64,000 nucleotides of DNA, taken from Acidimicrobiales bacterium (GTDB lineage: Bacteria > Actinomycetota > Acidimicrobiia > Acidimicrobiales > Aldehydirespiratoraceae). The stretch lies in assembly GCA_029263195.1 (NCBI GenBank), contig JAJCXX010000084.1, positions 62,001 through 126,000 of the forward strand, given 5' to 3'. Positions 4,868-10,390 of this stretch are shown here, piece by piece. The translations under genes and the position numbers were made by a program. Numbering within the stretch: position 1 is the stretch's first letter; each line of letters starts with the position of its first letter. The notes under the pieces are model-generated. The model was not told the DNA's origin. It saw only the letters and a program-made list of their open reading frames with translations, and ran no database searches.

Positions 4868-5833
4868 CTAGTTCCGGTGTAGTTGATTGAGAATGAGGCC
4901 GGTGACGACCAGGGCGGTGCCGCCGATCTGGCCCGGAGTGATTGTCTCGTCGAGCATGATCCAGGATGTGATTCCGCTGACGACCGGCACGGCAAAGAGG
5001 AGCGGGGCGACCTGGGTTGGCTCGAGTCGTTGGAGGACCCAGTTCCAGACCGACCAGGCGACGAAGACCGGAGCCACGACGAGCCACAGCAGGGCCAGCC
5101 AGCCGGTCGTCGTTACCGCCGACCACTCCTGGTTCGGCAGCTGCCAGGCAGTTGCTGCCATGACCGGGATGGCAGCGATGGAGATGCCGTAGGTGGTGAG
5201 TGTGACTGGCGGGTAGTGATCGACAAGGTCGCGGTTCATCAGCAGGTAGGTCGCATACGCGGCGGCAACTGCCACTGAGATCAGGTCGCCCCAGCCGAAA
5301 GAGACGGACGTGCGGGCGGTAACGAACATGGTCGTGCCGATGGCGGCGAGGCCGACGGCGACGAGCGAGGCGGCCTGGGGGAGCTGCCGCTGTCGTGTTG
5401 CGGTGATGGCCAGAACCCACATAGGTACCAGCGCCAGTAGCAGCGAGGCCGAGAAGGCGCTGGTGAAGTTGAGTCCGACGCTGAAGCCGAACACGTAACC
5501 CAAGAATCCGACCAAGGCGACGAGCACCATCGGCCTGCGGTGTTGAGGTTCGATCGGACGGATCTGGTTCGTCGCGGCGATGACGATCCAGCCGATCGCG
5601 CTCATGGCGGCGAAGCGGAAGAAGTTGAACGTCGCCAGGTCGAACTGGTTCAATGCGTGCTTCGCGAACACGAAATTGATCCCCCACCCGAACACGACGA
5701 CCGCGGCGATCACCCACGCCCGACGGCTCTCTGACGACGCTTCGCGAACCTGCGCTGGTCGTCGTGTTGAAGAAGCGTTCGTGCCCACGGCCGTGTCGAG
5801 ATCATGGAGGTCCTGGTCGATTCCGAGGCTCAT
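4868..5833 (-). CDS. EamA-family (DMT) transporter
   Basis: A 321-residue integral membrane protein of the drug/metabolite transporter superfamily. After a hydrophilic N-terminus of about 35 residues there are ten predicted spans in two EamA halves: the first begins AWVIAAVVVFGWGINFVF, and the second begins around GWGDLISVAVAAAYATYLL and ends with VVSGITSWIMLDETITPGQ, typical for the family. EamA proteins export or take up small metabolites; the substrate cannot be read from sequence. The ATG at 5833 overlaps the stop of the deiodinase-like gene (ATGA), making it the last gene of the coupled PPOX-deiodinase-EamA operon. Longer upstream starts would run into that gene. Confidence 0.88.
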   Translation of the reverse strand: MSLGIDQDLHDLDTAVGTNASSTRRPAQVREASSESRRAWVIAAVVVFGWGINFVFAKHALNQFDLATFNFFRFAAMSAIGWIVIAATNQIRPIEPQHRRPMVLVALVGFLGYVFGFSVGLNFTSAFSASLLLALVPMWVLAITATRQRQLPQAASLVAVGLAAIGTTMFVTARTSVSFGWGDLISVAVAAAYATYLLMNRDLVDHYPPVTLTTYGISIAAIPVMAATAWQLPNQEWSAVTTTGWLALLWLVVAPVFVAWSVWNWVLQRLEPTQVAPLLFAVPVVSGITSWIMLDETITPGQIGGTALVVTGLILNQLHRN

Positions 5834-6678
5834 GACAACCCGAGCCACAGCGCGATGCCGCCAGTGAGTGCGACGGCGATCAGGGCGAGGAGAACCGGGC
5901 CTCGCTTGGCAGGTGACACGGTCGGGAGCAGCTTGGTCAGCGCGGACATTGCCGCCATCGGGGGAGCGCTTCGCCATAGGTCTCGCTTTGCCCGGGGTCC
6001 GGCGCGATCGAGGACTTCATCGATGTAGCCGAGAGAGCGCACCAAGTTCGGCACGGTGCGAGCCAACTTCTCTCGCCGCAGGGCATTGCCGGAGACCATG
6101 GCTTCGAGCGCCTCCTCGAGCCCGCGCGTGTCGTTGGCCCACTGTGCCCGGAAGCGAATCGTTCCAGTCTGGTCAATCAGGTAGGCGGAGTTCGGCTTGG
6201 GGCTCATGGCCCGGTGAAGCGTGCCGTCGAGGTCGTCGACAGCCACCGCGAACTCGAACCGGTGGTGGTCCCGAAGAGCATGTGCCTGGGCGAGTTTGTC
6301 GGCGGCGGTGTGTGGCTGCGGGATGTTCTCGCCGGGATGTGCTTCCCGGACGTTGACCGCGACGAATCGGACCTGGTCGCCGAATCGACGGTGGAGTTGG
6401 TTGAGGCCGGGCCCGGATGCCTCGGTGAGCGGGCAGGTCAGCGAGCCGAAGACCATGAGGACCGGCTTGGTGAGTGCGGTACTGCGAAATCTGTCGCCGT
6501 CGGTTGTGGGTAGATCGAATGGCGGGACCGGGTCGCCTGCGCCAGGGTCTCGCCGGCGGAATCGCATGTCGGCCAAGATCAGTGGCAAGGAGAGACGGTC
6601 GAAGTCGTAGCTGTGGCTTAGTGCGTCGCGATTGGCGACAGCGTTGTCCTCATCGGCTGGTGTGTCGGTGGTTGTCAT
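5830..6678 (-). CDS. Deiodinase-like thioredoxin-fold protein with C-terminal membrane anchor
   Basis: A 282-residue protein with a redoxin/thioredoxin fold at about residues 45-190. It starts GDPVPPFDLPTTDGDRF, and its active site reads LMVFGSLTCPLTEASGP, matching the FGSxTUxPF site of iodothyronine deiodinases with Cys in place of selenocysteine; there is no CxxC. The region YLIDQTGTIRFRAQWAND completes the fold. A basic stretch follows, then one C-terminal membrane span (about residues 262-280), placing the domain in the cytoplasm or at the membrane face. The substrate is unknown; bacterial relatives are annotated as deiodinase-like or redoxin proteins. It overlaps both neighbours by four bases (ATGA), so it is coupled to the PPOX gene before it and the EamA gene after it. 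Confidence 0.8.
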   Translation of the reverse strand: MTTTDTPADEDNAVANRDALSHSYDFDRLSLPLILADMRFRRRDPGAGDPVPPFDLPTTDGDRFRSTALTKPVLMVFGSLTCPLTEASGPGLNQLHRRFGDQVRFVAVNVREAHPGENIPQPHTAADKLAQAHALRDHHRFEFAVAVDDLDGTLHRAMSPKPNSAYLIDQTGTIRFRAQWANDTRGLEEALEAMVSGNALRREKLARTVPNLVRSLGYIDEVLDRAGPRAKRDLWRSAPPMAAMSALTKLLPTVSPAKRGPVLLALIAVALTGGIALWLGLS

Positions 6679-7301
6679 TGTTTTGCACCTTCCTCGTGCG
6701 TTGATGTCTGGGGGTGACCTTCTAGTTCTGCTTCCAGCTCACGGATGTGCTGCCGGAGCGGGCCTGTGAGCGCATCAACGTGCTCTTGGGTGAAGCGCGG
6801 GGTGATGAACTTGGGGCAGTTCCAGTCGAAGGAGACGACGTCAACTGTGATCGCCCCGTCACGGCGGGTGTCATTGCCGCCGAGCGTGTCGATCAGGTCG
6901 GACGGAGGTTCGAGGTGATGTGTGGCCAGCCCAAACAGTTTGAGCCGGGTTCGGCTCGGGTAGTCCACGATGATGATCGCCACCTTGTTGTTGGCGGCAA
7001 TGTTTCCAGCGCTCACGTACTGACGGTTTCCGAGGCGTTCCACCCAGCCGATGGTGTGGTCGTCGATCACTTTTACGAATCCTCTAGAGCCGCCGCGATG
7101 TTGGACGTAGGGCCATTCGGTGTCGGACACCGATGCCATGTAGAAGCTGTCCGCGGCCTGTATGTGGCCGATTTCTCCCGTGTCGAGCCCGATCGGGTTC
7201 GGCCATGTTTCGGCGGCCCGGCTGTAGTGCTCCCGCGCTCCCTTTAGTGTTTGGAGTTCGGTGACCGGCGGCGTGAAGGCGATGTCGAAGTACTTTTCCA
7301 T
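6675..7301 (-). CDS. Pyridoxamine 5'-phosphate oxidase-fold (FMN-binding) protein
   Basis: A 208-residue protein of the PPOX split-barrel flavoprotein family. Recognisable segments are the N-terminal TPPVTELQTLKGAREHY, the strand region DSFYMASVSDTEWPYVQHRGG, and SAGNIAANNKVAIIIVDYPSRTRLKLFG, the usual FMN-phosphate and dimer-interface part. Such proteins bind FMN or F420 and reduce or oxidise small molecules, often as detoxification enzymes. It is the first gene of the operon with the deiodinase-like and EamA genes and starts 13 bases after the palindromic operator at 7314-7331. Repression by the neighbouring TetR protein is a strong inference. Confidence 0.85.
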   Translation of the reverse strand: MEKYFDIAFTPPVTELQTLKGAREHYSRAAETWPNPIGLDTGEIGHIQAADSFYMASVSDTEWPYVQHRGGSRGFVKVIDDHTIGWVERLGNRQYVSAGNIAANNKVAIIIVDYPSRTRLKLFGLATHHLEPPSDLIDTLGGNDTRRDGAITVDVVSFDWNCPKFITPRFTQEHVDALTGPLRQHIRELEAELEGHPQTSTHEEGAKQ

Positions 7302-7313
7302 GATTGTTCCTTC

Positions 7314-7331
7314 GTACCGAACGATCGGTAC
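7314..7331. promoter_or_regulatory. TetR-type operator in front of the PPOX operon
   Basis: Inverted repeat GTACCGA-N4-TCGGTAC with perfect 7-base arms and spacer ACGA. It lies 13 bases upstream of the PPOX start codon on the minus strand. The same 18-base string (core TACCGA-ACGA-TCGGTA plus CA) occurs just upstream of the tetR gene at 7954-7971. Two copies at the two promoters of a TetR unit are the classic autoregulation pattern. Confidence 0.8.
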
Positions 7332-7377
7332 AATAGTGGGGTAGAGGGGCGCGCGAAAACGTTGGTCCAGGGGCGCT

Positions 7378-7941
7378 CTAGTCCCTCTGCAGGAGACGCT
7401 CAGGGAGCAGGGCTATCGCCCGTTCGAACGCGTTGTGGTTGTTGGTCGTTCGAGCCACCACCAGGGCGCCCTGAATGCTCGCAACAGCATCGGTGGCCCG
7501 GACCTGGGCGTCGCTACGGCTGTGCCCGGCGTCCCGAGAGAGCCCAGCCAAGACGCTGATCCAGGTGGTCATCGCCTGCTCGAGGAGGTCTGCCAGGTCG
7601 CCGGCCGGCTGTCCTATCGACATGGTGTCGAGCAGGCACGGCAGGTGTCCATCGTCGTAGAAGGACACGAGGTTTCGGCCGATCTCATTGATGCGGTCCT
7701 CCAGCGGCTCGTCGGTGCTGGCAGCAGCAAGGATGGTGGTGCCGAACCTGTTCGTGACCTCTGCGACAACAGCGCACGCCATATCGTTCTTTCCGGCGGG
7801 GAACCGGTGATACAGGCTCGAACGTTTGAGGCCGGATGCGTCCTGGAGCCGGGCCAGGCTCGCCCCCTCGAACCCTTCCTGGCGAAAGACCTCGATAAGT
7901 CGGTCCATTAGGAGGATGTCAGAGACGAGTTTCGGAGGCAC
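7378..7941 (-). CDS. TetR/AcrR-family regulator (local repressor of the PPOX operon)
   Basis: A 187-residue TetR-family protein. The N-terminal helix-turn-helix spans roughly residues 10-50 (LIEVFRQEGFEGASLARLQ then GLKRSSLYHRFPAGKNDMA). The C-terminal helices form the ligand pocket and dimer face, including the later VASIQGALVVARTT. The SLYHRFPxGK type is common in regulators of detoxification genes. The gene sits 76 bases upstream of the PPOX operon on the same strand. An operator lies 12 bases ahead of its own start and an identical one ahead of the operon, so it probably represses both until an inducer binds. The inducer is unknown. Confidence 0.88.
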   Translation of the reverse strand: MPPKLVSDILLMDRLIEVFRQEGFEGASLARLQDASGLKRSSLYHRFPAGKNDMACAVVAEVTNRFGTTILAAASTDEPLEDRINEIGRNLVSFYDDGHLPCLLDTMSIGQPAGDLADLLEQAMTTWISVLAGLSRDAGHSRSDAQVRATDAVASIQGALVVARTTNNHNAFERAIALLPERLLQRD

Positions 7942-7952
7942 CTCGCATTTAT

Positions 7953-7970
7953 ATACCGAACGATCGGTAC
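7953..7970. promoter_or_regulatory. TetR-type operator in front of the tetR gene
   Basis: Second copy of the palindrome (TACCGA-ACGA-TCGGTA at 7954-7969), 12 bases upstream of the tetR start codon on the minus strand. The core and the two following bases are identical to the copy at 7315-7332, while the flanks differ, as expected for a protein-binding site rather than a recent duplication. Confidence 0.8.
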
Positions 7971-8028
7971 AGTCAACCCATTTTCTGAGTTTGGTCAGCC
8001 GGAGGCGGTGGCTGCTCTTTGGCCGAGG

Positions 8029-8592
8029 TCAACCGGCAGTCTCGGTGGTCAGGGCGGCGAGGATTGTGGTCGTTGCGTCGCTGACGATGGTGGCTGCAGC
8101 GATGGGAATTTCGGCAACGAGTTCGGATACGGCGTTGAGCATGTGGCGGACAAGCTTCGTGGTGGTGTCGAGGCTCAGGCTGGGGCGGAACTCACCGGTC
8201 GTGGTGCCATCGGTCAGGGCGCGGTGGATCTGGTGTTCGAGTTCGTCGTCGAAGGCGGAGAGTTGGTCGCGCAGGTCGGGCGGGAGTCCGTGGTGGGTCT
8301 GGAGGGTGTGACCGTGGCTGGAGATGGCGGCGACGTAGCGGACGAGTTGTTGGATCGTTTCGATCGGGGTGGAGACTACGGCCAGGGTCTGGTGAAGCCC
8401 GGCAATGGCCATGTCGTTGTGGCGTGTCGCACCGTCGGCCAGGATGCTGGCCACGTCGGGGTAATGGTTGTAGAGGGTGGCGCGGGCGATGCCGGCGGTG
8501 CGGGCGATATCGATCATGGCGACGGCGCTCAAGCCGTGGTCGGCGACGAGGCCGAAGGTGGCTTCGATGATGCGGTCCTGGGTGGTGGTCAC
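8029..8592 (-). CDS. TetR/AcrR-family regulator linked to the ABC exporter
   Basis: A 187-residue TetR-family protein with its helix-turn-helix in the first 50 residues (IIEATFGLVADHGLSAVAM, IARTAGIARATLYNHYPD) and a helical ligand domain after it. The GTG at 8592 is chosen because it lies two bases after the permease stop and begins exactly at TTTQDRIIEAT, where the family normally starts; a longer frame upstream reads through the permease gene. It is the third gene of the ATPase-permease-regulator unit, so it probably controls expression of this exporter and itself. A candidate operator precedes the ATPase gene (10380-10390). Confidence 0.85.
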   Translation of the reverse strand: MTTTQDRIIEATFGLVADHGLSAVAMIDIARTAGIARATLYNHYPDVASILADGATRHNDMAIAGLHQTLAVVSTPIETIQQLVRYVAAISSHGHTLQTHHGLPPDLRDQLSAFDDELEHQIHRALTDGTTTGEFRPSLSLDTTTKLVRHMLNAVSELVAEIPIAAATIVSDATTTILAALTTETAG

Positions 8593-8594
8593 GG

Positions 8595-9401
8595 TCAGGC
8601 GCCGTTTCGATAGAGGCGGACCGAGAGGGGCACGAACACCACGAGGAGGCCGATCGTCCAGCCTGCCGCCAGGATGATGTCGGTCGATGCGGGGGTGCCT
8701 TCGCAAAGGCCGCGGACGGCGTCGGCGGCGACGGAGATGGGTTGGTAGGTGGCGAAGGGCTGAAGCCAGCCGGGCATCGAATCGGCCGGGGTGAAGGCGG
8801 TGCTGGCCAGCATGAGAGGGAACAGCCAGAACATCGACAGCATGCCGACCATGTCGGGCTGTCTGACTTTGGCGGCGATGGCGGCGCCGAGCCAGGAGAA
8901 GCCGAACCCGACCGCTGTGGTGAGAAGGATCGCAGCGATTGCACCCTGGGCGGAGTCGAAGCGGTAGCCCATGACCAGGGCAAGTAGAGCAACGAGGACG
9001 AGCCCGACAAGGTTGCGGGCGGCATCGGCGATGGTGCGGCCGGCGATTACTGCGACCTGGCTCATTGGCAGTGAGCGGAATCGGTCGGTAACTCCTTCGG
9101 AGAGGTCGGTGGCGAACCCCATGCTGGTCTGTTGCGCTCCTTGCAGGGCCGTGATGACAAACACGCCGGGTACGAGGAACTGGAGATAGTCGACCCCGGC
9201 CCCGGAGCCGATGGCGCCACCGAAGACGTAGTTGAACAGCACGAGAAAGAACACGCCCATTACCACCGAGAACACGAGCAACTCAGGTTGACGGGCGGTG
9301 CGGATCATGTCGCGCCACAGCATGGTCAACGTGTCCTGGGCAGCCCAACGGATGCGGTCGCGAGCGCTTGGTGCGAGGTGGGCTGGTGCTGTTGTGATCA
9401 T
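8595..9401 (-). CDS. ABC-2 type exporter permease (DrrB-like)
   Basis: A 268-residue membrane protein of the ABC-2 permease family with about six spans. After a cytoplasmic N-terminus (RDMIRTARQPELLVFSVVM) come the typical LFNYVFGGAIGSG region and the conserved loop FATDLSEGVTDRFRSLPM, which touches the ATPase. Later spans end at FVPLSVRLYRNGA, the usual C-terminus of DrrB-like permeases. With the ATPase next to it, it should form a homodimeric exporter for drugs, lipids or a polyketide-like compound. Its start overlaps the ATPase stop by four bases (ATGA), so the two are coupled. Confidence 0.9.
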   Translation of the reverse strand: MITTAPAHLAPSARDRIRWAAQDTLTMLWRDMIRTARQPELLVFSVVMGVFFLVLFNYVFGGAIGSGAGVDYLQFLVPGVFVITALQGAQQTSMGFATDLSEGVTDRFRSLPMSQVAVIAGRTIADAARNLVGLVLVALLALVMGYRFDSAQGAIAAILLTTAVGFGFSWLGAAIAAKVRQPDMVGMLSMFWLFPLMLASTAFTPADSMPGWLQPFATYQPISVAADAVRGLCEGTPASTDIILAAGWTIGLLVVFVPLSVRLYRNGA

Positions 9402-10363
9402 CGTCGGACCTCCTCGGTCGGGGTGGTGGGGGAGCCGGTCAGGGCCAAGAAGACGTCGTCGAGGGTCGGCCGGCGGAGCTGGAAGTCGTCGATGGTGACT
9501 CCCGTGTCGTCGAGCTGTCTGAGTACGTCGAGTGACTGGGCGGCCCCGCTGGTGATGGGGAGGTCGACTTGGCGGCGATCGGGGTCGATCAGTACGCCGG
9601 CGACGCTGGCCAAGAGGTTCTGCGCCAGGGCCAGGTCGGTGTCGTCGGGGACGTGGATCTCGAGGACGTCACGGCCCACCTCGGCCTTGAGCTGCTCTGG
9701 TGTTCCCGCGGCGACGGTGCGACCTTGGTCGATGACCAGGATCTGATCGGCAAGTTGGTCGGCTTCGTCGAGGTACTGGGTCGTCAACAAGATCGCCGTG
9801 CCGGCTGCGGCCAGCTCTCGCACCGAGTTCCAGACCTCGGCCCGGCTGCGCGGGTCGAGGCCGGTCGTGGGCTCATCAAGAAACAGCGCCAGCGGATCCG
9901 CGACCAGGGCGGCGGCGATGTCGAGGCGTCGACGCTGTCCGCCCGAATAGGTCGAGGCCGCTCGGTCAGCAAACGTACCCATGTCGAAACGCTCCACGAG
10001 CTCATCTATGCGGGCGTGCCGGCGCTGGCGTGGAAGCTTGTAGAGACGGGCGAACAGCTCGAGATTCTCGCGGGCCGTCAGCTTCTCGTCGACTGCTGCC
10101 GCCTGTCCGGCCAGCCCGATCAGCCGTCGAACCTGCTCCGGGTTGCGGTCTACGTCGAAACCAGCGACGGTCGCGTTGCCCCGGTCGATCGGGATCAGGG
10201 TTGTCAACATCTTCACTACGGTCGTCTTGCCAGCCCCGTTCGGCCCCAGCAGCCCAAGCACTTCGCCGCGTCTGGCCGACAACGTCACGTCCTCGGCGGC
10301 CACAACATCGCCGAAGTGCTTGGTCAACCCGTTGGTCACGATCATGGCGTTGGAGTCAGACAT
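9398..10363 (-). CDS. ABC transporter ATP-binding protein (DrrA-like)
   Basis: A 321-residue ATPase of the daunorubicin-resistance (DrrA) type. It has Walker A GPNGAGKTT, the signature STYSGGQRRRLD, Walker B ALFLDEPTTGLD, a switch region LLTTQYLDEADQ, and a C-terminal extension (RRPTLDDVFLALTG) typical of DrrA. The ATG at 10363 was chosen because a TATATT box lies seven bases upstream, which fits a leaderless transcript; an ATG three codons earlier would sit inside that box. First gene of the exporter operon. Confidence 0.92.
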   Translation of the reverse strand: MSDSNAMIVTNGLTKHFGDVVAAEDVTLSARRGEVLGLLGPNGAGKTTVVKMLTTLIPIDRGNATVAGFDVDRNPEQVRRLIGLAGQAAAVDEKLTARENLELFARLYKLPRQRRHARIDELVERFDMGTFADRAASTYSGGQRRRLDIAAALVADPLALFLDEPTTGLDPRSRAEVWNSVRELAAAGTAILLTTQYLDEADQLADQILVIDQGRTVAAGTPEQLKAEVGRDVLEIHVPDDTDLALAQNLLASVAGVLIDPDRRQVDLPITSGAAQSLDVLRQLDDTGVTIDDFQLRRPTLDDVFLALTGSPTTPTEEVRR

Positions 10364-10370
10364 AGCGTTC

Positions 10371-10390
10371 AATATAGCAGACAGAGTGTC
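10371..10390 (-). promoter_or_regulatory. Promoter -10 box and dyad of the ABC exporter operon
   Basis: On the minus strand a TATATT hexamer (10376-10371) sits seven bases before the ATG at 10363, the spacing of a leaderless actinobacterial promoter. Directly upstream is the short palindrome GACA-GAG-TGTC (10380-10390), well placed to block RNA polymerase and so a candidate site for the TetR protein encoded at the end of the operon. Only one copy was seen, so the operator part is tentative. Confidence 0.45.

Follow-up and report, generated by a model that had tools for sequence, protein, structure and literature searches.

A palindrome shared by a tetR gene and a PPOX–deiodinase-like–EamA operon as the candidate operator of a proposed detoxification-and-export unit in an Acidimicrobiales genome

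Genes and palindromes of the locus

The window analysed here, a 64,000-nt stretch of an Acidimicrobiales genome, carries on its minus strand four genes in the order tetR, PPOX, deiodinase-like and EamA (Table 1). The TetR protein exceeds the cut-offs for both of its domains, TetR_N (29.0 bits, cut-off 24) and TetR_C_13_2 (32.7 bits, cut-off 27). The latter is the LmrA/YxaF-like C-terminal domain, which places the protein by domain content in the LmrA/YxaF (QdoR) subfamily, and among PDB structures it weakly matches Bacillus subtilis YxaF (1sgm, E 9e-4). The EamA protein scores 121 bits over two stretches, with two EamA (DMT) repeats above cut-off. The PPOX protein matches PNPOx_N at 26.6 bits, under the Pfam gathering score of 28.1 yet significant, and TIGR04025 at 40.1 bits, under the cut-off of 170; its annotated homologues at 40–44% identity are named PPOX-family. 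We consider these matches to the PNPOx and TIGR04025 families weak, yet real. The structure model of the PPOX protein is of low confidence (pLDDT 56.8) and too poor for use.

Table 1. Features of the locus (window coordinates).
Feature	Position	Strand	Remarks
EamA/DMT-type exporter, 321 aa	4868..5833	-	from ATG at 5833; ATGA overlap with deiodinase-like stop
Deiodinase/peroxiredoxin-like thioredoxin-fold protein, 282 aa	5830..6678	-	single Cys82, REAHP motif, C-terminal hydrophobic helix; ATGA overlap with PPOX stop
PPOX/FMN split-barrel-like flavoprotein, 208 aa	6675..7301	-	weak PNPOx_N and TIGR04025 matches; five-member family alignment
Candidate operator palindrome O2	7315..7330	-	13 nt before PPOX ATG at 7301; 15/16 bases in OFTM10
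TetR-family repressor, 187 aa	7378..7941	-	GTG start; TetR_N and LmrA/YxaF-like C-terminal domain
Possible tetR core promoter TTGACT-17-TATAAA, around O1	7948..7976	-	10/12 consensus bases
Candidate operator palindrome O1, TACCGATCGTTCGGTA on coding strand	7954..7969	-	12 nt before tetR GTG at 7941; same 16-mer in OFTM10 and G243

Both junctions downstream of the PPOX start, PPOX/deiodinase-like and deiodinase-like/EamA, are 4-nt start–stop overlaps with the sequence ATGA. For EamA, the ATG at 5833 is probably the start rather than position 5977, because it gives the same kind of 4-nt overlap that joins PPOX to the deiodinase-like gene. A first-pass annotation of the same DNA had described a TetR repressor, a flavin-fold enzyme, a deiodinase-like redox protein and an exporter, the last three in a coupled operon. 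The calls for TetR, EamA and the peroxiredoxin/deiodinase-like protein hold up, that for PPOX rests on a significant match under the gathering score, and the two ATGA overlaps support translational coupling.

The same 18-mer, TACCGAACGATCGGTACA, is read directly from the window at 7315–7332 and 7954–7971 on the plus strand, with flanking sequence that differs between the two copies. The coordinates and spacings given in the first-pass annotation were right. Its description of the string as a perfect inverted repeat is correct for the two 6-nt arms of TACCGA-N4-TCGGTA, whereas in the full 16-mer seven of the eight positions pair. With up to three mismatches allowed, these two sites are the only ones in the window (four strand matches), where 0.33 matches were expected by chance and 100 shuffles gave a maximum of 3. 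The exact 16-mer occurs twice in the 3.63-Mb genome, both times at the tetR/PPOX starts.

We list the tetR core promoter around O1 as a suggestion only; it shows up only when the consensus is relaxed, and its counterpart in the related genome OFTM10 is weaker. A strict sigma-70 scan of the region reported nothing; it passes over the tetR promoter because its rule demands T as the last base of the −10 element. Before PPOX, neither the loose nor the strict scan gave a convincing −35/−10 pair. The neighbouring positions 8029–10372 hold a separate drug-exporter-type operon that the OFTM10 locus lacks: genes for an ABC-2 permease and for an ATPase whose C-terminal domain is DrrA-like, followed by a second TetR gene.

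Conservation of the palindrome beside related TetR genes

A related locus lies in the MAG OFTM10, which belongs to the same family and another genus. Its contig (L035) carries tetR–PPOX–deiodinase-like genes at 80–87% protein identity, and 16 of 16 bases of O1 and 15 of 16 bases of O2 are kept within intergenic regions that are 56% and 64% identical. The O2 counterpart there, TACCGATCGATCGGTA, is a perfect 16-nt palindrome. The EamA gene of OFTM10 is split over two contigs; its remainder (88% identical, residues 113–368) begins another contig, consistent with the gene order of the window, and its junction with the deiodinase-like gene is a GTGA overlap. Among 51 genomes of the family, the motif was found in two, the window's own and G896 (which appears to be the OFTM10 assembly), twice in each and at the tetR/PPOX places. 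The deiodinase-like and EamA cargo likewise accompanies the TetR gene in 2 of the 51.

Of 395 genomes of the class, three carry the degenerate motif TACCGAWCGWTCGGTA: that of the window, G243, where it precedes a tetR gene, and G102, where it lies once within an unrelated coding region. In G243, which falls outside the order, the identical 16-mer stands 10 nt upstream of a tetR gene with 43% identity, and the next gene after this tetR is a PPOX gene (53% identical). No deiodinase-like or EamA gene adjoins this pair; the gene after PPOX we take, from its translation, to be an unrelated carotenoid-oxygenase-like gene. In G700, from another class of the phylum, TACCGAACGTTCGGTA is found 10 nt before a 36%-identical tetR. 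The full four-gene cluster was sought outside the family and not found, and phage records gave no match to the TetR. PPOX homologues of about 50% identity within the order (G145, G113) adjoin DUF1348 genes and lack the palindrome; the G145 locus also has an unrelated TetR.

The TetR subfamily is spread over actinobacteria, proteobacteria and cyanobacteria, with relatives at 30–39% identity in plasmid records. Its recurrent neighbours are PPOX, DUF1348 (NTF2-like), GST and DsrE genes. PPOX or DUF1348 was a neighbour of the TetR gene at 21 of the 23 subfamily loci sampled and at 0 of 34 other TetR loci, the latter being mostly shorter (about 3 kb, compared with 4–13 kb). In a tree of 34 TetR proteins, with a site defined as TACCGA-N4-TCGGTA with at most two mismatches, the nine site-bearing rows group in a single branch (support 98/99). 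Because the operator label was assigned with the sites already in view, the tree illustrates the link between TetR and site and is no independent test of it. The site is present in 9 of the 11 rows of this branch, which includes plasmid copies from Methylocystis, Sphingomonas, Variovorax, Nostoc and Synechocystis; the other two rows are near-identical Rhizobium TetRs without the site. Four of these copies, those of Methylocystis, Sphingomonas, Nostoc and Synechocystis, have tetR and a PPOX-containing or DsrE–PPOX operon in divergent orientation, with two site-like palindromes in the intergenic region between them.

Half-sites of the type ACCGA...TCGGT also precede more distant TetR genes (L069, L076), and the motif is therefore read as a TetR operator class and not as the private signature of one repressor. 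A separate, DUF1348-linked TetR group has mostly shorter palindromes of the TACC-N4-GGTA type. In this sister group they were observed upstream of DUF1348 (L112–L122), sometimes as a pair, which suggests an operator change within the subfamily. The gene order DUF1348–tetR–PPOX was seen at an actinobacterial locus (L045 in G145, 479–2120) and on a Novosphingobium plasmid (L118, 1992–3690) with differing TetRs, and PPOX–DUF1348 may be the more constant pair. On a Rhizobium plasmid (L106, 3001–5330), where no 6+4+6 palindrome was found, tetR overlaps the gene of an annotated PPOX-family protein of 584 aa, an unusually long product that may be a fusion.

The palindrome, sought upstream of orthologous genes, is thus kept in OFTM10, G243, G700 and proteobacterial and cyanobacterial relatives, which favours, as far as sequence can, the earlier proposal that one TetR acts on its own gene and on the PPOX operon. 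It stands at the promoter regions of the regulator and of its putative target and is conserved with the regulator, as for a TetR autoregulator with a local target operon. Among open-licence papers, no characterised system was found that combines TetR with PPOX, DUF1348 or DsrE operons, in agreement with the earlier statement that the four-gene combination is no named system. What appears to be new is an unnamed TetR–PPOX switch that recurs across phyla with a defined operator, together with its local deiodinase-like/EamA variant.

The deiodinase-like protein

The product of the third gene scores just over the cut-off for AhpC-TSA (27.8 bits, cut-off 26), and under those for T4_deiodinase (PF00837; 23.3 bits, cut-off 27) and NF038285 (80.7 bits, cut-off 250). 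Its top PDB sequence match is a type III iodothyronine deiodinase (mouse deiodinase 3, E 4e-4). Cys82, in the motif GSLTCPLT, occupies the position of the deiodinase selenocysteine; it is the sole cysteine of the protein and is an invariant cysteine in seven homologues. The REAHP motif is invariant in the same seven, with E112-A113-H114-P115 aligned to the EAHP of Dio3, so that the substrate-site Glu-Ala-His motif of the T4_deiodinase family is present here. The substrate-side His202 of Dio3 lies in this Glu-Ala-His-Pro motif (PMC11592359). Conservation among the seven homologues does not extend to the His that aligns near the Dio3 'PQH'. A strongly hydrophobic helix at the C-terminus predicts a membrane anchor. 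The structure model (pLDDT 70.7) matches thioredoxin-fold proteins at E ~1e-8, with DsbE, ResA and 2cvb-type thioredoxin-like proteins slightly above deiodinase 3.

Deiodinase-like proteins are a listed group of prokaryotic selenoproteins, largely without known function (PMC13188914). At the Chloroflexota and SAR202 loci that encode them (L037–L042), a search for homologues of the TetR, PPOX and EamA proteins of the window found none. The window's genome has a solo paralogue (L130, G000:C6:24040-24846), whose counterpart in a same-genus genome (L131/L036) sits in a locus without TetR, PPOX or EamA; this suggests that L130 is an older chromosomal copy. On a plasmid of Mycolicibacterium vanbaalenii JOB5 (L103, 3711–7876), tetR stands in divergent orientation to a series of AhpD-like, deiodinase-like, glutaredoxin and MFS genes; this redox-export cluster is an independent case of a deiodinase-like thiol protein in a TetR-exporter setting.

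Proposed regulation, alternatives and related systems

We propose, with a probability of about 0.75, that the locus is a ligand-relieved TetR unit in which repression at O1 and O2 controls a detoxification-and-export operon. By analogy, an operon of this kind, like those of the Bacillus QdoR/LmrA system, is the best explanation of the locus. A TetR dimer would bind TACCGA-N4-TCGGTA at O1, in its own promoter, and at O2, just upstream of the PPOX operon, and would thereby repress both tetR and the three-gene operon. It would be released by a small molecule, for which an electrophilic or aromatic xenobiotic is the likeliest candidate. The compound, or the damage it causes, would next be modified or reduced by the flavoprotein and the membrane-anchored thiol protein, and the product would leave the cell through the EamA protein.

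The two sites, their conservation beside TetR and rarity elsewhere, the coupled operon layout and the TetR–PPOX pairing are read from the sequences themselves, and this strong comparative evidence makes repression through two sites well supported. From it we infer binding and repression by the TetR protein. Release by a ligand is drawn from knowledge of the family, in which B. subtilis QdoR controls its own gene and holds qdoI repressed until it is released by quercetin (PMC8481877). The functional link of the deiodinase-like and EamA proteins to PPOX rests on the operon layout, because these two join the TetR in two genomes only. The chemistry of the operon and the exported compound are speculative.

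The first-pass annotation went further and offered, as a plausible reading, a dehalogenation, reduction and export pathway for a halogenated or aromatic small molecule; its dehalogenation step is not supported here. Under the same wiring, the thioredoxin-fold protein, helped by the flavoprotein, would strip an aromatic compound of its iodine or other halogen by reduction, and EamA would export the product. The sequence match to type III deiodinase, the alignment of the catalytic Cys with the deiodinase Sec and the invariant REAHP motif with its counterpart of Dio3 His202 all speak for such a pathway, but the T4_deiodinase and NF038285 scores stay under their cut-offs, Cys replaces Sec with no second cysteine in the protein, the 'PQH' histidine is not conserved, and other thioredoxin-like proteins outrank deiodinase 3 in the fold search. 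Moreover, the same TetR in relatives adjoins PPOX, DUF1348, GST and DsrE genes and not deiodinase-like ones, partners that point to general electrophile or xenobiotic stress rather than to halogens specifically. Dehalogenation is thus at most weakly supported, by a partly conserved active site, and we hold a true pathway of this kind to be quite improbable. We would give still less credence to a halogen-responsive operon, in which the Cys-based deiodinase relative and the FMN protein dehalogenate the very molecule that releases TetR and EamA exports the product; if true, bacteria would have, under a dedicated sensor, their own version of the reductive deiodination of vertebrates.

It is unlikely that the TetR meaningfully regulates itself and PPOX only, with the deiodinase-like and EamA genes as passengers of a recent gene capture. 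G243 does have the TetR–PPOX pair without them, and the deiodinase-like protein stands alone elsewhere, including the solo paralogue and the Chloroflexota copies; against this, both junctions are 4-nt start–stop overlaps, the EamA junction of OFTM10 overlaps by GTGA, and, as an independent case, the deiodinase-like gene of the Mycolicibacterium plasmid is joined to AhpD by an ATGA overlap, with TetR, glutaredoxin and MFS neighbours. We find it very unlikely that the palindromes belong to another regulator such as the second TetR (8029–8706), which ends the ABC-transporter operon. Its gene is within 700 nt and TetR proteins often bind related palindromes, but it is missing from the OFTM10 locus, where both palindromes persist, and from the genes seen at the G243 locus, and the palindrome tracks the first TetR across phyla. 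An RNA hairpin or a duplicated repeat without regulatory role is the most improbable reading. In its favour, the 6-bp arms might pair into a stem, and a 5′ leader might contain the PPOX copy; however, the flanks differ, there are two copies per genome only, and related sites sit between divergent tetR and PPOX operons, while the arms are invariant in the window's family and hence offer no compensatory change in support of a stem.

Under the preferred reading, ligand-relieved repression at two operators, the TetR subfamily with its defined operator TACCGA-N4-TCGGTA and recurring PPOX neighbour would constitute a testable regulon. The operator would give a direct route to TetR targets and a reporter for the inducing signal, and the local cargo would be among the few settings that tie a bacterial deiodinase-like protein to a regulator and an exporter.

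Several known systems share parts of this arrangement. With Dio1–3 and the prokaryotic deiodinase-like proteins, the third gene product shares the thioredoxin/peroxiredoxin fold, the nucleophile position and the Glu-Ala-His-Pro motif; it differs in having Cys rather than Sec, no resolving Cys and scores under the family cut-offs. Its hydrophobic helix is C-terminal, unlike that of Dio, which is at the N-terminus. Prokaryotic selenoprotein forms of the deiodinase-like group are listed as UxxC (PMC13188914). The JOB5 plasmid cluster resembles the locus in having a TetR gene, a gene of exporter type and a redox enzyme gene that is ATGA-coupled to the deiodinase-like gene (45% identical), but its TetR is unrelated (no BLAST match), AhpD stands for PPOX and MFS for EamA, and no 6+4+6 palindrome was found in it. 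The TetR–PPOX/DUF1348/GST/DsrE clusters of alphaproteobacterial and cyanobacterial plasmids, for example Sphingomonas ERG5 pCADAB1 and Synechocystis 6714 pSYLB, are annotated, with no characterisation found in the literature searched. They share the TetR subfamily (30–39% identity), the PPOX neighbour and, in one branch, the operator type, whereas they lack the deiodinase-like and EamA genes, and several are divergent with two sites per intergenic region.

The QdoR(YxaF)/LmrA system of B. subtilis has the same LmrA/YxaF-like C-terminal domain, an operator at the regulator's own gene and another before a detoxification gene. Its regulon (qdoI, lmrAB) has a drug exporter beside the enzyme, and the published LmrA/YxaF box differs in sequence from TACCGA-N4-TCGGTA. 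A quercetin dioxygenase there contrasts with PPOX and a thioredoxin-fold protein here, and the exporter belongs to a different family. The wiring of the TetR is ordinary for its family, and the cargo of a deiodinase-like thiol protein and an EamA exporter is the unusual part.
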